Of a DNA stretch of 44,159 nt, positions 8,486-42,888 are shown one piece after another (the stretch's first letter is position 1; each line of letters begins with the position of its first letter). The notes under the pieces are model-generated. The model had not been told where the DNA came from. It was given only the letters and a program-made list of their open reading frames with translations, and did not search any database. The translations under genes and the position numbers were made by a program. The DNA lies in the IMG/VR virus record IMGVR_UViG_3300027733_000083, positions 1-44,159 of that record; one strand, given 5' to 3'. Source of the stretch: a virus.

Positions 8486-8694
8486 AACTTACCGCAGAAA
8501 ATATTGAACAAATAATAAAGATTAAAAAACTTATTAAACTTGAGGAGGACTTAATAGATTTTAATGCAGAACATGATGATATAACAACCGAAAAAATAAG
8601 GTCTTGTGGGGTTATTTTGGAAAGAGAAGTTAAAAATTTTTTCAATAACTTCGAACTTGAAATAAAAAATATAATTATTTTTAAAAAAACATGA
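8476..8694 (+). CDS. Hypothetical acidic helical protein, 72 residues
   Basis: The gene overlaps both neighbours (10 nt and 4 nt), as expected within an operon. The product is acidic and helical (KLEEDLIDFNAEHDD). No family is recognised. It directly precedes the methyltransferase gene. Confidence 0.6.
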   Translation: MEIKLTAENIEQIIKIKKLIKLEEDLIDFNAEHDDITTEKIRSCGVILEREVKNFFNNFELEIKNIIIFKKT

Positions 8695-9371
8695 ACAAAC
8701 AAGAGTTTTTAAACGGGCAAATAGTTTTGTTTAATTGCGATTGCATCGATGTTATGCGAAATTTAAAAGACAAAGAAATTGATTTGGTTTTGACTGATCC
8801 GCCTTATGGGATTAATTTTGGAGTTTTTAACAGAACTAATAAATTAAATAACGGACAAAGAATTAAAGCAAATAAATATCACAATGCAAATTGGGATAAT
8901 AATATCCCAGATAATTGTGTTTTTGATGAGCTTTTAAGAATTTCTAAAAATTCAATAATTTGGGGTGGAAATTATTTTCCAAAATTATGGCAAGTTGCAG
9001 GAAGGTGCTTTATTTTTTGGAAAAAAAACAATCCAGTCCCCAATTTTGCAGACGGAGAATTGGCTTGGACTAGTTTTGATAAAGTAGCAAAGTGCTTTGA
9101 TTTTAATTACTATGGAAACCAAGAAGGAAAAACTCTTGCCGAAAGCAAAATCCACCCAACTCAAAAACCAGTGGCTTTAATGAGCTGGTGCTTAAATAAT
9201 TATAGCCAAGAAAATGATCTAATTTTTGATGGTTTTTTAGGCTCGGGAACAACTGCAATTGCTTGCATTAGAACAAAACGGCGATTAATTGGTTGCGAAC
9301 TTGACAATGAATATTTTGATAAAATGTGTAAAAGAATTGAAGAGGAATTAAGGCAAGGAAATTTATTTTAA
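8691..9371 (+). CDS. DNA methyltransferase (N6-adenine or N4-cytosine)
   Basis: The catalytic motif DPPY is at residues 36-39 and the SAM-binding motif FDGFLGSGTT at 179-188, with HPTQKP at 155-160. Motif IV precedes motif I, which is the beta-class order. DPPY favours adenine-N6 methylation. The specificity region (about 45-150) is short and its target cannot be read. No restriction endonuclease gene is nearby, so this is an orphan enzyme that may protect phage DNA. Confidence 0.9.
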   Translation: MNKQEFLNGQIVLFNCDCIDVMRNLKDKEIDLVLTDPPYGINFGVFNRTNKLNNGQRIKANKYHNANWDNNIPDNCVFDELLRISKNSIIWGGNYFPKLWQVAGRCFIFWKKNNPVPNFADGELAWTSFDKVAKCFDFNYYGNQEGKTLAESKIHPTQKPVALMSWCLNNYSQENDLIFDGFLGSGTTAIACIRTKRRLIGCELDNEYFDKMCKRIEEELRQGNLF

Positions 9372-9390
9372 TTATTTTTAAAAATAATGC

Positions 9391-9418
9391 TTGACACATT
9401 AAAACACTTGTATAGTAT
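9391..9418 (+). promoter_or_regulatory. Promoter for the tRNA and structured-RNA locus
   Basis: TTGACA (9391-9396) and TAGTAT (9413-9418) are spaced by 16 bp. The upstream block TTTTTAAAAATAATGC is nearly the same as before the promoter at 14226. It lies 55 nt before the first tRNA. Confidence 0.75.
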
Positions 9419-9472
9419 GAGTTGCGAAGGTTGATAAAAAGACTTTTAAAAATATAAATCGTAAATATAAAT

Positions 9473-9549
9473 ATCAGATTAGCTCAGTAGGTTAGAGCAA
9501 AACACTCATAATGTTTGGGTCGGTGGTTCAAATCCATCATCTGATACCA
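9473..9549 (+). tRNA. tRNA with CAU anticodon (Met or Ile2)
   Basis: The cloverleaf is complete: acceptor ATCAGAT/ATCTGAT, D stem GCTC/GAGC, anticodon stem AAACA/TGTTT with loop CTCATAA, T stem GGTGG/CCATC with loop TTCAAAT, discriminator A and encoded CCA. The anticodon stem lacks the three G-C pairs of initiator tRNA. It is therefore an elongator Met tRNA or a lysidine-modified Ile tRNA reading AUA; AUA is a plausible need in so AT-rich a genome. Confidence 0.93.
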
Positions 9550-9550
9550 T

Positions 9551-9627
9551 TGGTAGGTAGCTCAGCTGGATAGAGCAACAGCCTTCTAAGCTGTAGGTCG
9601 TGGGTTCAAATCCCTCTCTACCAACCA
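9551..9627 (+). tRNA. tRNA-Arg (UCU anticodon)
   Basis: Acceptor TGGTAGG pairs with TCTACCA, the anticodon stem is ACAGC/GCTGT with loop CTTCTAA, and the T loop is TTCAAAT, followed by A and encoded CCA. It reads AGA, which is frequent in these genes. It is separated from the first tRNA by a single base, so both probably come from one precursor. Confidence 0.95.
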
Positions 9628-30226: not shown

Positions 30227-31129
30227 TTAAGCGCCTGCAGAACCATATACGGCACGAGGGTCAGAAGGAATACCAGTTGCAAAACGTTTAGTAATAATGA
30301 TGTTTAGATTTTGAGTTCTATCATCAGAAAACTTATCAGTTTCAACTTCACGTCTTACATATGATGTTAATCCACCAGCAGTAATGTCGTTAATTAAAAA
30401 CCAAGCATCTTGATCTGTTAAAAAGTTAGTGCAAACAAGTTCTAATTTCATATTCGATAAAACATTTATGTCATTATTATTTGAACCAGTAGCATATTTA
30501 GTTTCAAGAATTTTTGTTGCAATAAAGTATAAACTTCTTGGAATAAGAAGTTGTTTAGGCATAATATTTAACCTTTTACCTTGATCATCTCTAAAATCCA
30601 TAATGTCAATTATGGCGTTTTCTAATGAAGTTTGAGTTAAATCTGCCGAAACAGCTGGAACGTTTGAAAAAGTTCCGCCAGCAACAAGAGGGTGAGCATT
30701 TGAAAATAAAATTTGCCCGTCTGCTCCAGTATAATTTGAATTAAACCCATTGTTAAAAACGTTAGTGTGAACAATTTCTTCTTGATGAATCATTGAACGT
30801 GCTGCCATTTCTGGAATTTGTTTAATAATGTTATATTGATCATCCTCAGCCATTTCACGAGTAATAGTCACACCTAAACCATAAGTATTGTGGACATATT
30901 CTTTTTGATAGCCTTGAAAAATATCGGTGAATGCTATTTCATCACCTTGTTCTTTAATAGCGGCAGTTGGAAGCGAAGTAATGCCTTGTTCTTTTTCAAA
31001 AGATTTTGTTGATTTTTTAATATCAAAAAACTTTTTGTACATTACGTCATGTTCTTTATATTTGTTAGCAAAAATTGTTGCAATACCAGGATATAATAAC
31101 TCCGCTAATTTTGAAGTTGCTATTGTCAT
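30227..31129 (-). CDS. Major capsid protein
   Basis: The 300-residue protein has features of a short HK97-fold capsid protein: an N-terminal arm (LLYPGIATIFANKYKEHDVM), SFEKEQGITSLPTAAIKEQG, HNTYGLGVTITREMAEDDQY, and a late LIPRSLYFIATKILETKYAT segment. It lies downstream of the scaffold and small virion genes and upstream of a hairpin, as expected for the most expressed virion gene. No protease gene is seen. Confidence 0.85.
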   Translation of the reverse strand: MTIATSKLAELLYPGIATIFANKYKEHDVMYKKFFDIKKSTKSFEKEQGITSLPTAAIKEQGDEIAFTDIFQGYQKEYVHNTYGLGVTITREMAEDDQYNIIKQIPEMAARSMIHQEEIVHTNVFNNGFNSNYTGADGQILFSNAHPLVAGGTFSNVPAVSADLTQTSLENAIIDIMDFRDDQGKRLNIMPKQLLIPRSLYFIATKILETKYATGSNNNDINVLSNMKLELVCTNFLTDQDAWFLINDITAGGLTSYVRREVETDKFSDDRTQNLNIIITKRFATGIPSDPRAVYGSAGA

Positions 31130-33262: not shown

Positions 33263-33565
33263 TTAAACGTATAATTCACCTAAAATATCTTCATCAGAAC
33301 ATAAATAATATTCTTTTTCGATATTTGGTATTTTAATCCAATCGCCAGCAAAACGGCTAAACATAACCTTTTTACCTATAAGTTCTTTAACTGGTTGATC
33401 GCATTCAGTACCAGCATCTAAAACAATTCCAATTGTTGGAGCATTTATTTTAGGGTCTTTTGTGTGTAAAATAATTCCTCCTTTACTTTTTTCTTCTGCG
33501 GTTTCTCTTTCAATCAAAACACGATTAAAAATTGGTCGCAGTGGATAAGGATATTTTTCTGTCAT
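33263..33565 (-). CDS. groES: Phage GroES-like co-chaperonin
   Basis: The 100-residue length and the motifs match GroES: LRPIFNRVLIERETAEEKSK, GGIILHTKD (mobile-loop region), TIGIVLDAGTE, VKELIGKKVMFSRFAGDW, and EYYLCSDEDILGEL at the end. It would cap host GroEL to fold a phage protein, most likely the capsid, as gp31 does in T4. It sits between the scaffold and a portal-adjacent gene. Confidence 0.9.
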   Translation of the reverse strand: MTEKYPYPLRPIFNRVLIERETAEEKSKGGIILHTKDPKINAPTIGIVLDAGTECDQPVKELIGKKVMFSRFAGDWIKIPNIEKEYYLCSDEDILGELYV

Positions 33566-34400: not shown

Positions 34401-36584
34401 TTATTGATTTTTAGTTAAATATTTTAAATATTCTTTTGGGATTGGGAGCGTTTGGTCAAGAAATCCTGTCTCTGACCCTTGACGATTTGGGACAAGTGAT
34501 TCAGGATTTTCCATTCCCCTTGCAATTCCCTCAAATCCCCCAATTCCTTGATTGTCATAGCTTTCTCCTGCGGGCGATACATTTTCGTTAGCTCCTCCAA
34601 CATTTTGATAGTAATTGGATTCTTCCGCCATAGCTCGTAGTCGTCTTGCATTTTCTAATTTTTCCTCATTTTGTTTATATAAATAAGCAACATGTTTTTG
34701 TCTATGTGCCATAATTGCTGACATAGTTTCTTTATCAATTTCTTCCGCAAATGGTCCTTTTAACAATTCATCAATTACTTGGATATGTGTTTTATGATCT
34801 TGATCTTCAAAAACATCAAATAAAGGACGTTCGTTTGCTGGCATTAAGAAAAAAGTGTTTTCTTGTCTTTGATCATCTATTTTTTGCGGTTGTTGTTGCT
34901 CTTCGGGGTTTGGTAACATATCTTTTATGTCTTCTATTTCCATAGCTTCTAACATTTTTTTAGAAACTTCGTATAAAGATTTTGGATTATTTGCCATTAA
35001 AGGGTTTTGAAACGCAAATTGATATAAAGATTGTGCTTTAGCTATTTTTTGTTGTTTAGTAATGTTTCTAGGATCAAAAATAGGAATTATTTTTAAATCT
35101 TCTTGATAATCTTGTTTAGTAATTCCAAATAATTTACCATTTTCTACAAAATAAGCATCATCTTGAAGATATTTGCGATTTAAATTATATAATTTTTCTA
35201 ATTCATCTTGAAATGAACTTGCCATTTGCTCCATTACGCTGGTTGGCATTTGCAATGATTGTTCGAGCATGGTGGTAATAGTGACGGGCTGGTATACTTT
35301 TTCTACATCACCAGTAACGGCATCTGTTACCGAAGTTAAACTTCTTGCATAATTTTCTAAACCTTGCATTAAATTTATATAGGCTGGATTTGGTCCAGCA
35401 AATTGCAATTGATAAAATTTATCGCTTATTCTGCCGTCGCCAAAACCTGAAGTTTTAACAAATTTACCCATTGACATTTCAATTTCACCGCCTTTAACAT
35501 CTAAAGTTTCATCCATAAAACCTGAAGCAGTATTGGCAAGTTCACCAGCATTGACAGATTGTCTTAACATTTTGTTAATTGCAATGTTTAATTTACCCGC
35601 TAAATGTCCTATACCATAACCATAAAATCCATCTGGATTTTCTAAAAATTTATAGTGAGTAAAATATTCAATAGGTTCTTTGTTTCTTAAAGGTTTTCCA
35701 GTTTCATCAATTTCGTAACGAATTTGTATTCTTAAAACTTTTTTACTTTGATAGTCAACGGTAATAATATATGGCTCTAATATACCATCGCCATCTAAAT
35801 CATAAAGGGTGTGGCTTTCTAATATTTTAGCGTATTCTATACTATTATCGCCACTTGGTTTTATACCTTGAAAATCTATTTCAACTTCTTCAAATTCGTT
35901 TTCTGTGCCGATTTCATATTTTTCAGCTACATCTATAAAATATTCACTATTTTTAAGTATTTTTGTTTCATTTATAGTTTTATATATTACATGCGTTTTT
36001 CTCGGAACTTTTTCTATTGCTACTGGTCCAATGGTATAAGGAACTACCAAATCAACAGCCCTAACTCTTTCAACTACATTTTCACGTATTACTGGGTCAT
36101 AATATGTTTTAGTAAAATCAGATCCATTTAATGGGGTTGCTAAAAACATTGCATTTTTTTCTCGTTTGTAATTTTTATTTAACAAACCCAATTGAAATGA
36201 CATGTGTTTAGCAATTTTTTCAGCTCTTTCAACGGTTTCAGAATTTATATTGTTGCCAACAGGAATTGCGTCAAGAAAATTGCGAGTTGGAAAAAACGCT
36301 TTGTAAGCACGGGATTGAAAAGAATTACAGGCTTCTGTTACAATTGGAACACCATCACGGCTTGAGCCATCCCAAGGTTCGTTATCAGGTTCATCGGTTT
36401 GATTATATAATTTTTTCCATTCAGTATGTTTTGCTAACCAATCGGATCGCGAAGCAAGATCGGAACTAAAATCGTTATATATTGATAAACCTATTTTTTC
36501 TAACTCATCTTTGTCTAATTTTGACGCTAGATTAAGTTGTTCCACATTTAACCCTTGTGATATTAAATCATCAATTTTTATCAT
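34401..36584 (-). CDS. Portal protein
   Basis: This 727-residue protein matches portal proteins of P22-like size: EWKKLYNQTDEPDNEPWDGS, GSSRDGVPIVTEACNSFQSR, a wing and stem region (YGYGIGHLAGKLNIAINKML, RQSVNAGELANTASGFMDET) and a Gln-rich helical C-terminus (about 560-727) that could form a barrel. It makes the dodecameric DNA entry ring and anchors terminase and adaptor. Confidence 0.88.
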   Translation of the reverse strand: MIKIDDLISQGLNVEQLNLASKLDKDELEKIGLSIYNDFSSDLASRSDWLAKHTEWKKLYNQTDEPDNEPWDGSSRDGVPIVTEACNSFQSRAYKAFFPTRNFLDAIPVGNNINSETVERAEKIAKHMSFQLGLLNKNYKREKNAMFLATPLNGSDFTKTYYDPVIRENVVERVRAVDLVVPYTIGPVAIEKVPRKTHVIYKTINETKILKNSEYFIDVAEKYEIGTENEFEEVEIDFQGIKPSGDNSIEYAKILESHTLYDLDGDGILEPYIITVDYQSKKVLRIQIRYEIDETGKPLRNKEPIEYFTHYKFLENPDGFYGYGIGHLAGKLNIAINKMLRQSVNAGELANTASGFMDETLDVKGGEIEMSMGKFVKTSGFGDGRISDKFYQLQFAGPNPAYINLMQGLENYARSLTSVTDAVTGDVEKVYQPVTITTMLEQSLQMPTSVMEQMASSFQDELEKLYNLNRKYLQDDAYFVENGKLFGITKQDYQEDLKIIPIFDPRNITKQQKIAKAQSLYQFAFQNPLMANNPKSLYEVSKKMLEAMEIEDIKDMLPNPEEQQQPQKIDDQRQENTFFLMPANERPLFDVFEDQDHKTHIQVIDELLKGPFAEEIDKETMSAIMAHRQKHVAYLYKQNEEKLENARRLRAMAEESNYYQNVGGANENVSPAGESYDNQGIGGFEGIARGMENPESLVPNRQGSETGFLDQTLPIPKEYLKYLTKNQ

Positions 36585-36659: not shown

Positions 36660-36785
36660 TTATTTTTTCTTTTTTACAAGCTTTTTTGCTCCAGCTTTAT
36701 CAGCTTTCATGTCAGCTTTTGAATTTTCATATTTTTTCAAAGCACTTTTAGGATTAGTTGCTTTTTTAATTGATTTTTTTGGCAT
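36660..36785 (-). CDS. Tiny Lys/Ala-rich protein, 41 residues
   Basis: The frame runs from ATG 36785 to TAA 36660 and overlaps the glycosyltransferase gene by 20 nt. The product is histone-tail-like (MPKKSIKKATNPKSALKKYE), with Lys and Ala dominating. It could bind packaged DNA or act in assembly. A 75-base gap with nothing notable separates it from the portal gene. Confidence 0.5.
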   Translation of the reverse strand: MPKKSIKKATNPKSALKKYENSKADMKADKAGAKKLVKKKK

Positions 36786-38406
36786 ATTTTTGTAAATAAT
36801 GATTAATATTAACAGATTTGGAATATATTTTATTATTTTTATCTTGCAAGTATTTTTTATTTAATTTTAAATTTTTATGCAACCAAGGAATTATACCTTC
36901 GCCGTAAACCTCAAAATTATTTAAACCGGAATGTTTAAAAAAATCTCTTAATTCCTGCACTTGTGCTAAAAATTCACCTTTTGTCCAAAAAGTTCTTCTA
37001 ACTTCTTTTTCATTGTAAGATTCACAAGATAAAGTAGTTTCTAACCAAATTGGTCTTTTGTTTTCACCCTCACCTTTTGTCAGTTTTAAATCTGGTTTTT
37101 CTAAACTGCATAAATCATAAGCAAATAAATGGAATTTTTTAAAACCAAGCATATCTAAAACCGCAATTCCTCTTGTGCAAGTAGCGGAACCGCCACAAAC
37201 CATTTTATGATCTTTAGGTAATATTTTATGTTCTTCTGCACCAACATAAGCATTATATCCCCATATTTCACAACCCTGTTCTAAAAGATTTTTAGTTACT
37301 TCGGGATTAACCATAGACGCAACAAACCATTTTATTTGATTTGCTTTTGGATGATTAACAAAATCCTTTACATGTTCTCTAGGGTCTAACAATATACAAG
37401 CCCAAGGAAGAATATCAGCATCTAACAATTTTTCTAGTGCGTGTTTTACGGCTACAATTTTAATTCCTTTTTCATAAAAAGGTCGAATTTCTTCAGGACA
37501 TAATGAAGGACCAGCATTTGCAATAACAATTTCTTCTTGATTCGGCTCGCAAATATCTAACCAGTTTTCAATTAATTCTAAATTACCTTTAATATTTTTT
37601 TGTATTATTTCATGATCTACGCAATTTTTAGTTTGAACTTTTAAGTTTTTTAAATCAACAACTCCACTTTCTTTTAGTTTTTTTGGTCCTTTGTGGTGAA
37701 CCATAAATTCTGCTAAAGTAGTTTTTTCAAAAACATCTCTACCCTCTATTCCTTTGGAAATATTTAAGAAAACATCTTTGCCATTAGCGTGATTAAAATC
37801 TTGTGCAATAACATCAAACACAAAACTGTCATGCCATTGTGCTAAGGTTAAAACTTCATCATTGATATACATCGATACCATTTTGTCTAAAAATTCTTTA
37901 CCACCTTTTTTAAGATTAAAAATCATAAAACCACATTCGCTATGATCCCAATCTTTTCTTCCTAAATAACTTGTAACTTGTTTTTTTGGTAACCATTGAT
38001 TAAAATTTTCTATTGGTTTTTTTATTTCAATATCAGCATCCATCCAAATAAGATATTCTTTACCTTCCGCTAAAGCGAATGTCATGGCTTGATGCAAAGC
38101 AAAAACTTTAAAAGAAAATCTGCGGTAGTCCATGCGATAATCTTTTTCGTCTTTTAATTTATGACGCTTTAAAAATTCTAATTGCTCAGGTGGAAATTCC
38201 CTTGAAATAAAAATAATATTTTCGTCTCTAGCTTTTTCAGTTAAAGGTAATAACCATTGCTCCGTTTCTTGTAATTGTGGGCAAGGGTCTAAGCCAATTA
38301 AAATGGTTAAATCTTTTGGCAAATTATTAAGCCAAGTTGGTATAGTTTTTTGTGGATATTCTACCCAATTAGGAAAAGTAGTGCAAAGAGCTATGTTTTT
38401 ATTCAT
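36766..38406 (-). CDS. Glycosyltransferase fused to a DUF115 (MAF-like) domain
   Basis: The N-terminal half (to about 240) is GT-A-like: LCTTFPNWVEYPQKTIPTWL and the metal-binding DAD (123-125) in YLIWMDADIEI. The C-terminal half (about 292-435) carries the DUF115 pattern: IVIANAGPSLCPEEIRPFYE, AVKHALEKLLDADI, PWACILLDPREHV. DUF115 occurs in Maf proteins that add nonulosonic acids to flagellin. A second ATG at 38415 is possible. It ends the six-gene glycan cassette. Confidence 0.72.
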   Translation of the reverse strand: MNKNIALCTTFPNWVEYPQKTIPTWLNNLPKDLTILIGLDPCPQLQETEQWLLPLTEKARDENIIFISREFPPEQLEFLKRHKLKDEKDYRMDYRRFSFKVFALHQAMTFALAEGKEYLIWMDADIEIKKPIENFNQWLPKKQVTSYLGRKDWDHSECGFMIFNLKKGGKEFLDKMVSMYINDEVLTLAQWHDSFVFDVIAQDFNHANGKDVFLNISKGIEGRDVFEKTTLAEFMVHHKGPKKLKESGVVDLKNLKVQTKNCVDHEIIQKNIKGNLELIENWLDICEPNQEEIVIANAGPSLCPEEIRPFYEKGIKIVAVKHALEKLLDADILPWACILLDPREHVKDFVNHPKANQIKWFVASMVNPEVTKNLLEQGCEIWGYNAYVGAEEHKILPKDHKMVCGGSATCTRGIAVLDMLGFKKFHLFAYDLCSLEKPDLKLTKGEGENKRPIWLETTLSCESYNEKEVRRTFWTKGEFLAQVQELRDFFKHSGLNNFEVYGEGIIPWLHKNLKLNKKYLQDKNNKIYSKSVNINHYLQKYAKKIN

Positions 38407-38408
38407 AA

Positions 38409-38717
38409 TTACCATTTTAAATTACTAATTCTTTTAATGTCATTTTCTATATTTACCCCAAATTGGAATTCAATAAAATTAGCATGACCGCTAAAACTAT
38501 GAATAACTTTTTTAGGAATGTAAAAAAATAAATTATTATTGCTAAATTTACCGTTTAAATAAAACTTTCCGTTACCTTTTAATTTTATCCAAAATTCACT
38601 TCTTAATTTGTGTTTTTGAAATGAAAGTGACCCATCAAATTTTAAATATTTAATTTTTAAAAAAGGTAAATTAATTAATGTAATGTAATAACCCCAGTTT
38701 CTATATACTTTTTGCAT
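38409..38717 (-). CDS. Cupin, phosphomannose-isomerase-like
   Basis: The 102-residue protein follows the type II mannose-phosphate isomerase cupin: NWGYYITL, LSFQKHKLRSEFWIKLKGNG, then YIPKKVIHSFSG. Metal ligands would be H36, E41 and H73. It may isomerise a sugar phosphate or only bind a sugar. It overlaps the nucleotidyltransferase gene by 17 nt. Confidence 0.75.
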   Translation of the reverse strand: MQKVYRNWGYYITLINLPFLKIKYLKFDGSLSFQKHKLRSEFWIKLKGNGKFYLNGKFSNNNLFFYIPKKVIHSFSGHANFIEFQFGVNIENDIKRISNLKW

Positions 38718-39108
38718 AATTGTTTAATAATTCACTACTTGATTGAATTTTATTGCCACCAATATTAAAAAGCGGTTTTATTCCTAATTCTAAACACAAT
38801 GTTAATTCTGGCGTATTATTTTCTTTGCGATCGCCACCATTTGCAAAATAATCAGGTTTTAATTTTAATAAAGCATCACAAACAGAGTTATCTTTGTCAT
38901 TAACTGCAATAACATCATCAACATTTTTAATATTTAAAAGAATTTTAGCCCTTTCATGCCAATTCATAAAATATTTGCCTTTTTTGCAAACAAGCCAATC
39001 ATCAGAATTAAGAATAACAACAAGTTTGCCATATTTAGAAGCTTCGTTAATCATGTCAATATGCCCGCTGTGTATTGGATCAAACCCTCCTGATATTGCA
39101 ATTACCAT
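38701..39108 (-). CDS. Cytidylyltransferase-like sugar nucleotidyltransferase
   Basis: The motif AISGGFDPIHSGHIDMINEA holds the HxGH signature (13-16) of RfaE2/TagD-type enzymes, and DYFANGGDR follows. It would activate a sugar phosphate or polyol phosphate with CTP or ATP. ATG 39108, overlapping the FkbM stop, is preferred because the fold begins there and AGAGG precedes it. The 135-residue length is typical. Confidence 0.82.
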   Translation of the reverse strand: MVIAISGGFDPIHSGHIDMINEASKYGKLVVILNSDDWLVCKKGKYFMNWHERAKILLNIKNVDDVIAVNDKDNSVCDALLKLKPDYFANGGDRKENNTPELTLCLELGIKPLFNIGGNKIQSSSELLNNYAKSI

Positions 39109-39740
39109 CCTAATATTACCTCTTTGTGAATTTTTTCTAACACTTTCATGCCAAGACTTTGGCAATATTCGGTGGCTTGTAAATCTTCTTTACCATTTAA
39201 CCACTGTTCAACAATTATAATTGGTTTGTATTCTTTAATAAAATTAGTCATTCCTTTAACAACTTTATGCTCGTAGCCTTGAACATCAATTTTAATTAAA
39301 GTTTGTTTAGTTAAATCAAACTCACTTTTAATTGATAAAAATTCATCATCAAAACAATAAAGCGTTACATCGTCACCTTTTTCTAAATGCATTGCACCAG
39401 AATTGTTTAAATTATCAATAATAATTTTTGAGCTTTCTCGGCAATCTGATAAACCAAAATTAGCAAGATAAAAAACAGGATTATCTAAATTTTTATTTAA
39501 ACATTCAAAATTTTTTTGATTTGGTTCAATAGCTAGTATTTCTTTAAATCCTGCTTTTTGCGCCATTCTACTCCATAAACCTACATGGGCACCTACATCA
39601 ATAAATAAACCCCTATCTTTTGGTTCAATGTATTTTAAAACAGCATCAAATTGTTTTTTTTGATAATTACCTTCATCATCCATTATATTTTCAAAATGAG
39701 TATCAGTATCAGGTAACCAAGTATTTTTTACAAATTTCAT
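39102..39740 (-). CDS. FkbM family methyltransferase
   Basis: The SAM-binding segment LFIDVGAHVGLWS (45-57), IEPN (71-74) and KIDVQGYEHKVVKG (150-163) are diagnostic of FkbM enzymes, which O-methylate sugars or related hydroxyls. The length (212) is normal. It overlaps the GT8-like gene by 4 nt. It may cap or mask a glycan built by its neighbours. Confidence 0.85.
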   Translation of the reverse strand: MKFVKNTWLPDTDTHFENIMDDEGNYQKKQFDAVLKYIEPKDRGLFIDVGAHVGLWSRMAQKAGFKEILAIEPNQKNFECLNKNLDNPVFYLANFGLSDCRESSKIIIDNLNNSGAMHLEKGDDVTLYCFDDEFLSIKSEFDLTKQTLIKIDVQGYEHKVVKGMTNFIKEYKPIIIVEQWLNGKEDLQATEYCQSLGMKVLEKIHKEVILGW

Positions 39741-40420
39741 AATTTATATTGCATTGAGTATTCAGTGTAAATTCTTTCTTTGTGCCATTTATCCGCCATT
39801 GGCGTAGTAGCAAAATCGTGAAAACAAGGCGTGCCAAGCGTATAATGTAATAATTTAGCATTGTCATTAAAACCAAGTTCATCAGGTAACCAATTCCATT
39901 CAATCGGTAACTCACCAATCAAATCATCGGCTAGCCAAGTAAATCTATGTAATTGTGCGCCAGTAGCATTTTCAATAAAATCTGCTGTTAAAACTTTGTT
40001 AGCTTGATGTCCGCAATTCCAAAGAATAACACTAGACCAATTTTTGCGGGGATAATCTTCATTTTTAGCGCCAAGATATTTTTGATTAAACTTGGTTTTG
40101 TAATTATGTTTTACAACCATGACCGCTTTTGATTCATCTTTTAAATCAAATAATTTAGATATATCATCGCATAAAATCATATCACCATCAATAAACAAAG
40201 CCCAACCTTTATAATCAGTGAGACTTGGCACTAAAAATCTTGAATAAATAAATTGATTGCTTCCATCTTGATGCTTTTCTTGATAATTTTGTAAAGTATT
40301 AAGAGCAATTGGTATAATTGATATTGGTTTAGTTGCGTGCCTTACTATGCTATTAACGCAAGTATGATATGCAATTGCCTCTCTTTTATCGTAACCAATA
40401 AAAATTTGATTAATAGCCAT
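39737..40420 (-). CDS. Glycosyltransferase, GT-A fold (GT8-like)
   Basis: The metal-binding DGD (78-80) lies in WALFIDGDMILCDDISKLF, typical of GT8-like enzymes. YDKREAIAYHTCVNSIVRHA at the start and FNDNAKLLHYTLGTPCFHDF near the end also fit. It uses a nucleotide sugar; donor and acceptor are unknown. It overlaps neighbours by 4 and 11 nt. Confidence 0.8.
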   Translation of the reverse strand: MAINQIFIGYDKREAIAYHTCVNSIVRHATKPISIIPIALNTLQNYQEKHQDGSNQFIYSRFLVPSLTDYKGWALFIDGDMILCDDISKLFDLKDESKAVMVVKHNYKTKFNQKYLGAKNEDYPRKNWSSVILWNCGHQANKVLTADFIENATGAQLHRFTWLADDLIGELPIEWNWLPDELGFNDNAKLLHYTLGTPCFHDFATTPMADKWHKERIYTEYSMQYKL

Positions 40421-41219
40421 TTTGTTCTCTCATTTTTTTTATAATTGCACAAGCTAACCCCTTTTCAATTTCTTTTAGCGTGAATTGATGATACGAAATA
40501 AACCGCAACAATTTTAATCTATCAAGCTCTTTAGACCGAGTAAAACAATCATCAAGATTTGACATGTTTAAATTATTCCAATCTCTAACAATAGAATGCT
40601 GTGAAGTCGCAATAACTGGTATTCCTGCAAGTGTAGCGTCTAATGCTATGTTTGAGTTAAAAGTAATGACGCATTTTGCACCAAGTAAATCATCTTCCAA
40701 TCTAACTGACACATCGTTTTTATCTCTAATTTTATATTTTCTGTTGCCAAGTTTTTGAATTGTTGTATTAATCCATTTGTCGCAGTCAATGCCATAAAAT
40801 ATACATATTGCATCAGTGGGTGGGCAAATTAGAAAATAACCATGTTCGTTATTTTGCCAATCCTGCATTTTGTAATTAAGTTTGTCTATTCTATCTGACG
40901 GAAGGTTAACATCTTTATATCTTGCTTGCGTATCGTTGAGTGAAATTCTGTAATATCCATCAAATTGCCCTTTGTTATGTAAACTTCTATCAATATAACC
41001 GAGGTCTAAATGTAAATAATCTAAATTGTTTCTAAAGTTGTGATGAATGACATCGCTACACCCGCGCAAAATCCCGTAGAGTATAGATTCATCTTTAAAC
41101 ATACCTTTTTTTGCACCCTCTTTAAATAAAGAAGTGTCTTTAGCTATGCATCTAAAGCCAATTGCAACCGACCTCATTATTTTTTGCGAAATGAAGTGAT
41201 TTGTGTACCAAGCGATCAT
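40410..41219 (-). CDS. Capsule-type glycosyltransferase-like protein (GT-B-like)
   Basis: The C-terminal segment VITFNSNIALDATLAGIPVI (185-204) matches the nucleotide-sugar-binding part of capsular polysaccharide transferases. Upstream, residues 124-141 (NEHGYFLICPPTDAICIF) also fit. The N-terminal half is divergent. It is the first gene of the glycan cassette behind the large terminase, after a 73-base gap with nothing notable. Confidence 0.6.
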   Translation of the reverse strand: MIAWYTNHFISQKIMRSVAIGFRCIAKDTSLFKEGAKKGMFKDESILYGILRGCSDVIHHNFRNNLDYLHLDLGYIDRSLHNKGQFDGYYRISLNDTQARYKDVNLPSDRIDKLNYKMQDWQNNEHGYFLICPPTDAICIFYGIDCDKWINTTIQKLGNRKYKIRDKNDVSVRLEDDLLGAKCVITFNSNIALDATLAGIPVIATSQHSIVRDWNNLNMSNLDDCFTRSKELDRLKLLRFISYHQFTLKEIEKGLACAIIKKMREQNGY

Positions 41220-41292: not shown

Positions 41293-42888
41293 CTATTTTT
41301 GATTAGCCTTTTTAGCCAATCTATGCGATTCTTTTAACTCAACTCTATTTCTGTCTAGCTCTGTCATTATAAACGGACGACTAGCACAAGCATAAGCCAC
41401 GCAATCCCAAATATGATCTTCTTGATCACTGTCAGGTCCTTTTTCGGGGTGCAACTCATCAAGCTGTAAACTTGGCACAGTCCGCCAAAAGTGTTTGCAA
41501 CCCTGTAATGCGTAGAACGCTGGTAAATCCTCACCCTGTAATCTCGCTCTAAATTCTTGATAATTTTGAGCTTTACCTTTGCGACTTTGCACCATTCTAA
41601 ATACATTGCCCGTTGAACGATACATACGTTCCGCTACACTCATGCCATCATGCTCTCCCCACATTGCTGCATCGCCAACACGATAATCAATTGTTTCGCC
41701 CGTTTCTTGTTCTACCGCCAAGATTCTTCTAGCGACATCGGGGCTTTCTAACCTACACCCAACGTTGGGCTGTCCGCTCCACCCGTAGAACTCACGATAA
41801 AGTATTAAAGAATTAGCGGGAATTAATTTATCTTCGTAATTATCCTTAGCTTTGATTAAAGTATCAGCATCAGCAACCGCAAACCAACCTACAGCGAATG
41901 GCTTAGCCGTACCCCAATCAATTACCATAAACTTAGTCCAATAATCGGGTATTGCAAAGTTACGCACCAAATGACGCTCTCTGCTTAGCTTCTCAAATGC
42001 AAGTCCAAGCGTACTAGCTTCAAATGCTTCTTCCCAAGTGCACGGGTATTCTTGTCTAAATTCATCTTCACCGCGTAAACCAGCGCTTGACAGTTCAGCA
42101 ATCTTTTTGCGTCGCCATGCTATTTGTTCAACATCAAGCTTATAAAGCTTCATTAATTCCATCTCTTCTTTAGTCGCAATCATTGTATCGCTTGGCTTTG
42201 TACGATATTCTTTTTGCCAAAACCACGGTATAAATATTGGTATATAATCGCTTTCCCCACTTTGTGCTAGCATCCACTGCTCGTAGAACCAGTTAAGCTT
42301 TCCATTCGCTGTACTCTCAATGAATATTTCAGTTCCAAATTCATCCGGCACCGCTTGTAACGCACCTTTCGCTATATCTGAAGCATTGTCCCAGAAAGCG
42401 GCTTCCGAGCCATGAAAGTATTGTATTGTTGATGAACGACCAGTGTTTTTGTTGCCAGCTGTTCCGACTCTATATCCCGAATCAATTAAATCAAAACTTA
42501 ATTCTCTTTGTGATGACGCCCCAAGCTTAGGCTTGAAAGGTTCGGGACATAACTGATAATATCTATCAGCCATTTCAAATAAGTTGTTTGTAGCTTCTGC
42601 TTCATGTGTTAAAATAAACGCTCTACGACCAGCATTATTAGTGATTCGCCAAAATAAACGCCCTTCGATGTAAGTAGATATGCCCTGCTGCCGCCCCTTT
42701 AATATTATCGCTCTTACTCTCCCAGTCTTTTTAAGCTGTTCTTCTGCTGCCGAGTTTAAATATTGTTGAGCCGAATTTAATTCAAATTCTTCTATTGTTC
42801 CGCTTTTTGTTCTAATTTTGAGACAATTTAAAGCGTACAATTCAAAATCTTGTGATAATTCTTGACGAGCTTCTGAGCTTACTAACAT
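41293..42888 (-). CDS. terL: Large terminase subunit
   Basis: The ATPase has Walker A KGRQQGIST (64-72) and a Walker B-type FHGSEAAFW (158-166, with E162), then FIESTANG (189-196). The nuclease half has FMVIDWGTAKPF (320-331, D324), YRVGDAAMW (402-410, D406) and DHIWDCVAYA (491-500). The 531-residue length is normal. It packages DNA through the portal. Its base composition is visibly richer in G+C than that of neighbouring genes. Confidence 0.95.
   Translation of the reverse strand: MLVSSEARQELSQDFELYALNCLKIRTKSGTIEEFELNSAQQYLNSAAEEQLKKTGRVRAIILKGRQQGISTYIEGRLFWRITNNAGRRAFILTHEAEATNNLFEMADRYYQLCPEPFKPKLGASSQRELSFDLIDSGYRVGTAGNKNTGRSSTIQYFHGSEAAFWDNASDIAKGALQAVPDEFGTEIFIESTANGKLNWFYEQWMLAQSGESDYIPIFIPWFWQKEYRTKPSDTMIATKEEMELMKLYKLDVEQIAWRRKKIAELSSAGLRGEDEFRQEYPCTWEEAFEASTLGLAFEKLSRERHLVRNFAIPDYWTKFMVIDWGTAKPFAVGWFAVADADTLIKAKDNYEDKLIPANSLILYREFYGWSGQPNVGCRLESPDVARRILAVEQETGETIDYRVGDAAMWGEHDGMSVAERMYRSTGNVFRMVQSRKGKAQNYQEFRARLQGEDLPAFYALQGCKHFWRTVPSLQLDELHPEKGPDSDQEDHIWDCVAYACASRPFIMTELDRNRVELKESHRLAKKANQK

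Follow-up and report, generated by a model that had tools for sequence, protein, structure and literature searches.

A candidate glycan-assembly cassette inserted between the terminase and portal genes of an uncultured podovirus-like virus

Which molecule is decorated when a virus carries glycan genes among the genes for its own head? The question is raised by the IMG/VR virus record IMGVR_UViG_3300027733_000083, the whole of which (44159 bases, hereafter the window) was analyzed. The G+C content of the window is low, about 30%. Its first 17.2 kb or so carries replication and recombination genes on the plus strand; virion genes occupy the minus strand in a long co-directional block that extends to 43.5 kb. 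Within this block, between the genes for the large terminase and the portal protein, six open reading frames (ORFs) form one overlapping run on the minus strand (36766-41219). A preliminary description of the sequence had reported a six-gene glycan cassette at this site and had proposed that a virion protein is glycosylated or that the host surface is modified; its coordinates were confirmed. In minus-strand order, the cassette consists of:

40410..41219, minus strand: capsGT, a soluble GT-B-type transferase of 269 amino acids with a predicted KpsC/WbbB-like fold (AlphaFold2 model)
39737..40420, minus strand: GT8-family glycosyltransferase with a DxD motif (PF01501, 31.5 bits, cut-off 24.3; phrog_28018, E 2e-35)
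39102..39740, minus strand: FkbM-type O-methyltransferase (TIGR01444, 71 bits, cut-off 37.7; PF05050, 54.8 bits, cut-off 22.7)
38701..39108, minus strand: cytidylyltransferase-like protein of the HldE-C/TagD type, read from the ATG at 39108 (PF01467, 49 bits; motif GGFDPIHSGH)
38409..38717, minus strand: mannose-6-phosphate-isomerase-type (MannoseP_isomer) cupin (PF01050, 40 bits)
36766..38415, minus strand: fusion protein of 549 amino acids, a GT-A glycosyltransferase (residues ~1-250) followed by a DUF115/MptE-like domain (~255-549; PF01973, 53.2 bits, cut-off 34.6, residues 273-437)

Five of the six ORFs are backed by Pfam, NCBIfam and PHROG matches, and Pfam confirmed the GT8, FkbM, cytidylyltransferase, cupin and DUF115 families named in the preliminary description. 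The exception is capsGT, the "capsule-type" ORF of that description, for which no Pfam, NCBIfam or PHROG match was found. The folds nearest to its model (mean predicted local distance difference test, pLDDT, 82.5) are those of the 3-deoxy-D-manno-octulosonic acid (Kdo) transferases KpsC (Z 12.1, root-mean-square deviation 5.2 Å over 235 residues) and WbbB (Z 11.7), with deviations of 4.4-5.4 Å over about 220-240 aligned residues, whereas unrelated GT-B chains reached at most 9.3. The KpsC/WbbB/KrkA group (GT107/GT99) is thus alike in predicted fold (Z 9-12) and unlike in that it has no sequence match to capsGT. Among the aspartates of capsGT that might correspond to the catalytic Asp of this group, D72 is invariant and D96 is present in 18 of 32 sequences. 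The DxD motif of GT8 (FIDGDM) is invariant in alignment A3.

The predicted fold of the N-terminal half of the fusion protein is that of a GT-A domain (Z about 14-15), and together with the PF01973 match this bears out the GT-DUF115 fusion. The structure prediction that had been suggested for this protein was informative for the GT-A half and not for the other: the model of the DUF115 half is unreliable (pLDDT about 25-80, two full-length sequences aligned), and its fold is given no interpretation. A comparison of capsGT and the fusion protein with solved structures by sequence yielded nothing meaningful. None of the cassette products contains a hydrophobic segment (maximum of the 19-residue Kyte-Doolittle average at most 1.23).

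The cytidylyltransferase and the cupin belong together. In T4-like phages a single fused protein is found, and the window cytidylyltransferase aligns to its residues 1-140 and the window cupin to residues 145-252. The motifs of the fused protein, including the His/Arg/Glu motif of the cupin, are retained. Because the alignments run from end to end of both halves, the two ORFs are, as judged by this alignment, the split form of a bifunctional enzyme; the identical split is found in L001, a contig that is nearly identical to the window. The TTG at 39165, listed as start codon of the cytidylyltransferase, is unlikely to be the real one, since in another frame the stretch of overlap encodes the C-terminus of FkbM; the ATG at 39108 is likelier. 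With this start, consecutive cassette genes overlap by 11, 4, 7, 17 and 7 nucleotides. The fused homologue scores 72.9 bits against the HldE-C equivalog TIGR02199, below the cut-off of 181.5, so that it reaches only the general CTP_transf_like family.

Next, the site of the cassette was compared with that of its relatives. The minus-strand order is small terminase, large terminase, capsGT, GT8, FkbM, cytidylyltransferase, cupin, GT-A/DUF115 fusion, a small lysine-rich ORF, portal, a GroES-like ORF and head genes; the gene for the capsid protein lies at 30227-31129. The borders are:

41293..42888, minus strand: large terminase, upstream border (phrog_2, E 3e-28; N-terminal half 56% identical to Pseudoalteromonas phage H6/1)
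36660..36785, minus strand: small lysine-rich ORF of 41 amino acids, read from the sequence, overlapping the end of the fusion gene
34401..36584, minus strand: SU10-type portal protein, downstream border (PF23899, 54 bits, E 1e-14; phrog_1216, E 1e-18)

The gap between terminase and cassette is 73 nucleotides, and that between cassette and portal is 181 nucleotides, part of which is occupied by the lysine-rich ORF. No terminator-like site was seen at either border, and a promoter scan gave scores no higher than those of shuffled sequences. In the nearest cultured relatives, terminase and portal genes are adjacent, with 5 nucleotides between them in H6/1 (the terminase relative) and 1 nucleotide in Alcaligenes phage QDWS535 (the portal relative). 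No cassette family was found in any of 77 uncultured loci whose terminases are more distant (43-60% identity), and a portal-sized ORF directly follows the terminase in about half of the readable cases. The cassette is therefore a clade-specific insert. Around the portal gene, contig L002 has several small basic ORFs at the place of the lysine-rich ORF, and the GroES-like ORF of the window (33263-33565, recognized by eye), two genes past the portal, has a counterpart in the annotated GroES gene after the portal of QDWS535. Further away, a patch of higher G+C content (8691-9627) carries an N6/N4 DNA methyltransferase gene followed by tRNA-Met (CAT) and tRNA-Arg (TCT).

Four metagenomic relatives with 80-87% terminase identity (L002-L005) all keep terminase, capsGT, GT8 and FkbM at the same site and in the same order. 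The two of them that read further also encode the GT-A domain, plus DUF115 where the contig is long enough. The protein identities of the cassette core are 64-82% in these contigs (capsGT 71-82% in L002-L004). The ratios of nonsynonymous to synonymous substitutions (dN/dS) are about 0.07-0.25 for capsGT, GT8 and GT-DUF115, 0.25-0.5 for FkbM and 0.06-0.09 for the terminase, all of them rough values because synonymous sites are near saturation. These ratios suggest purifying selection on the cassette core in the clade. FkbM is read as two ORFs in L002 (2734-3390), for which a real break or an assembly error may be responsible, and it is open to the contig end in L005. L002 and L004, which both span the FkbM/GT-DUF115 junction, lack cytidylyltransferase and cupin, and outside the window the pair was found in L001. 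The pair is therefore an accessory of the window's lineage and four genes are constant in the clade, so that "six-gene" does not describe a natural unit.

The clade is not the only place where these enzymes meet. A search with the clade GT8 confirmed at least 446 viral stretches, the best 80 loci of which were read. Seventy-five loci beyond the clade, termed group A, are mostly T4-like, with a gp17-type terminase and, by eye, neighbouring UvsX and gp32-like genes. The cytidylyltransferase directly precedes GT8 in 62 of the 75 loci, with a 4-nucleotide overlap in 50, and 66 loci have it as a fusion with the cupin. Of the other families, capsGT occurs in 68 loci, GT-A in 38 and FkbM in 30. One example of the fused gene lies at 7234-7995 of contig L014; the phage collection gave no record matching 80% of the length of the fused protein. 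Group B comprises 80 loci, mostly on T4-like contigs, found with the GT8 of MW202512. It contains GT-A in 68, capsGT in 61, FkbM in 28 and the cytidylyltransferase in none, and the cluster follows ribonucleotide reductase and RuvC ORFs (by eye and by comparison with the annotation of Pelagibacter phage Mosig EXVC030M). As related genomes and partial contigs enter these counts, they do not represent independent events; it is safer to count the separate gene contexts, of which there are at least five. The GT-A half of the fusion protein is common to T4-like phages, Mosig and the podovirus MW202713, whereas the DUF115 half is, among viral contigs, confined to the window's clade.

In other phages, too, the genes lie beside virion genes, as in CcrColossus, where they are found next to tail genes (see below). 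MW202713 carries GT-A, methyltransferase, capsGT and aminotransferase genes directly before the terminase. Seven loci of the search with the MW202512 GT8 represent an unrelated podovirus lineage with a P22-type portal, in which the gene for the major capsid protein (PF13252) is separated from the neck genes by those for a TPR protein, a methyltransferase and GT8; in MW202512 itself, an FkbM-GT8 pair lies within the virion operon:

L141:8146-10717: TPR protein, methyltransferase and GT8 set; likewise in L143, L146, L169, L190 and MW202512

By eye, the C-terminal part of the TPR protein looks GT9-like, and a relative with 25% identity directly precedes GT8 in a Polynucleobacter chromosome (L111).

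The same enzymes thus stand together in hundreds of other aquatic phages, and the cassette is therefore a travelling phage module. The co-occurrence check proposed in the preliminary description was carried out, and the core was found in order in close relatives and clustered in unrelated phages; it is therefore a coherent set and not a matter of single genes or random host pieces. The claim that no described phage system has this set was too strong, in view of the hundreds of uncultured T4-like contigs and the published pelagimyophage clusters with GT8 and rfaE (PMC7029224). The members differ in divergence: the window GT8 is 64-72% identical to copies in at least 75 viral contigs and in some bacterial chromosomes (70-72% to group A and some of the chromosomal copies), unlike capsGT and GT-A (24-32% to group A members) and FkbM (up to 41%). 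From these identities, the enzymes recur together, but a recent transfer as a single block is improbable. A donor cassette on a bacterial chromosome was also considered. GT8 relatives with 61-72% identity occur on chromosomes, among them those of Oxalicibacterium and Roseibium. Beside these copies no further core family was found, apart from a weak capsGT near two of the more distant ones, and the comparison thus yielded no donor cassette. A Maf-type origin of the DUF115 half was rejected as well: tblastn gave no phage match, and 398 sampled bacterial genomes of one phylum yielded three weak matches in two genomes with no telling neighbourhood.

What, then, is glycosylated? We hypothesized that the cassette acts as a soluble, cytoplasmic glycan-assembly module of one marine podovirus-like clade, which would be expressed late, along with the head genes. 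An activated sugar may come from the cytidylyltransferase and its split-off cupin; the three transferases (GT8, KpsC-like and GT-A) may lengthen a short chain, which FkbM may cap by methylation. The DUF115 half could attach the chain, or extend it with an acidic (ulosonic-type) sugar; this order of work is inferred from the gene families. Since the cassette encodes no membrane enzyme, lipid carrier enzyme, flippase or polymerase, the likeliest acceptor would be a virion protein in the cytoplasm, as in the virion glycosylation of mycobacteriophages (Freeman 2023, according to the citing passage in PMC12619734). There, glycans on capsid and tail proteins, acceptors that have been shown, offer a working model for the putative acceptor of the window cassette. 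A virion acceptor is favoured by the late position and by the presence of such genes in the head operons of separate lineages. That the module glycosylates a virion protein could well be so, and we favour it, tentatively, over host-surface modification.

Several points weigh against this reading. Many T4-like contigs hold the same families in a DNA-metabolism region (gp32/UvsX or NrdA/NrdB/RuvC), surface polysaccharides are the usual setting of GT8 and KpsC-like folds, and the GT8/rfaE genes of pelagimyophages were published as lipopolysaccharide (LPS) modification (PMC7029224). The likeness to Maf enzymes, which glycosylate flagellin in the cytoplasm (PMC4065374), is that of a single domain. 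The PF01973 domain is present, as the preliminary description had said, but in the fusion protein a GT-A domain stands before it, where Maf enzymes have their N-terminal domain, the surroundings are phage head genes without flagellin context, and DUF115-type proteins occur beyond flagellin, so that the link to Maf is weak. A Pfam scan of the fusion protein at E up to 1 gave PF01973 only and not the N-terminal Maf domain PF20157 (Maf_flag10_N); a search of the window record for PF20157 found no match, though its control search was silent too.

The whole pathway could take place in the cytoplasm, with a protein as acceptor, or on an LPS precursor at the cytoplasmic side of the inner membrane. 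It is a real possibility that the module instead works from the cytoplasmic side on a glycan of the host surface (capsule, LPS core or O-chain), e.g., to block competing phages or the sticking of progeny to the debris of lysed hosts. The best matches of the capsGT fold are CMP-Kdo-using transferases, and GT8 is a common LPS family. The likeness of the fused cytidylyltransferase homologue to the heptose domain of HldE, though under the cut-off, the DNA-metabolism placement in T4-like phages and the published LPS reading of the pelagimyophage genes point the same way. So do the neighbours of other GT8 copies: in Synechococcus phage S-SCSM2R (L013:7995-11520) the genes near a GT8-like gene include annotated KdsB and KdsA, which suggests that a Kdo-type sugar is supplied there, and one bacterial copy lies among genes that look, by eye, like NeuB, NeuC and CMP-synthase. 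The late-operon position, however, is late for superinfection exclusion, the cassette lacks a membrane transferase, flippase, polymerase and lipid-carrier enzyme, and an unrelated podovirus lineage has its genes in the head operon. A search for the PF00589 integrase found none, with a positive control, and lysogenic conversion is therefore unlikely. A temperate serotype-conversion (gtr) cluster was rejected because the products have no hydrophobic segments and PF00589 is missing.

Three phages with comparable gene runs illustrate how the contexts differ. In Mosig, a single run comprises FkbM, GT-A, GT8, two capsGT genes and a sulfotransferase-like gene, but beside ribonucleotide reductase/RuvC and outside the head operon, and without the DUF115 fusion or the split cytidylyltransferase and cupin. 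Between its tail and lysis genes, the giant Caulobacter phage CcrColossus carries a DUF115-like gene together with capsGT, GT8 and GT9, but its capsGT and GT8 are 23-29% identical to those of the window, its DUF115 is not fused to GT-A, and FkbM, cytidylyltransferase and cupin were not seen at the locus. Its DUF115-like protein, annotated as sialyltransferase-like, scores 31.8 bits, just below the cut-off of 34.6, and an hhalign comparison with the two-sequence profile A9 was uninformative. Stenotrophomonas phage DLP_6 encodes a methyltransferase, GT8 and a GT29-like protein.

That the genes are recently acquired host-derived cargo without a settled role, now being lost, is unlikely: constraint is weakest on FkbM, which is interrupted in L002, and cytidylyltransferase and cupin are absent from L002 and L004, but order and position are kept across about 80% protein identity with low dN/dS, and the set recurs in unrelated phages. 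Glycosylation of the phage DNA, by T4-like or TET-like hypermodification, is very improbable: phage glycosyltransferases do act in this way (Pyle 2024, in the passage of PMC12619734 that cites it) and T4-like relatives retain the cluster near UvsX, but several transferases and a methyltransferase exceed the needs of a one-sugar base modification, and the thymidylate-synthase-family hydroxymethylase PF00303, the lack of which disfavours DNA as acceptor, was found neither in the window, a record that may be incomplete, nor in 20 family-bearing virus contigs, Mosig, CcrColossus, MW202512 and MW202713 (the control search detected it in 9 of 14 known genomes). A search for Tet_JBP gave no match, but its control search was silent too.

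Taken together, it is conceivable, and we propose it with reserve, that a transferable virion-glycosylation island (a core of GT8, KpsC-like transferase, GT-A and methyltransferase, with a cytidylyltransferase-cupin, fused or split, as its sugar supply) has spread to unrelated lineages of aquatic phages, and that in this clade it moved into the head operon and acquired a GT-A/DUF115 fusion by which the glycan is linked to a virion protein. Phage glycosyltransferase clusters, including GT8 with rfaE, are already known from pelagimyophages, where GT8 is reported to be the commonest family (PMC7029224), and in a large lineage of aquatic phages glycosyltransferase genes belong to the core (PMC12619734). 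In the open-access literature searched, the terminase-portal insertion, the GT-A/DUF115 fusion and a conserved cytidylyltransferase-cupin fusion directly upstream of GT8 were not found, and queries for phage DUF115 or an FkbM/glycosyltransferase phage cluster returned nothing.

Clusters of glycosyltransferase genes abound in aquatic viral data, where they are often classed, untested, as LPS-modifying auxiliary genes. A compact phage with soluble enzymes only and the core inside its head operon makes virion decoration directly testable, and the cytidylyltransferase-cupin fusion just upstream of GT8 offers a handle on the sugar that is made. If the proposal is true, phage particles with sugar coats would be a widespread phenomenon, which would bear on how they adsorb, how stable they are and how they are recognized.

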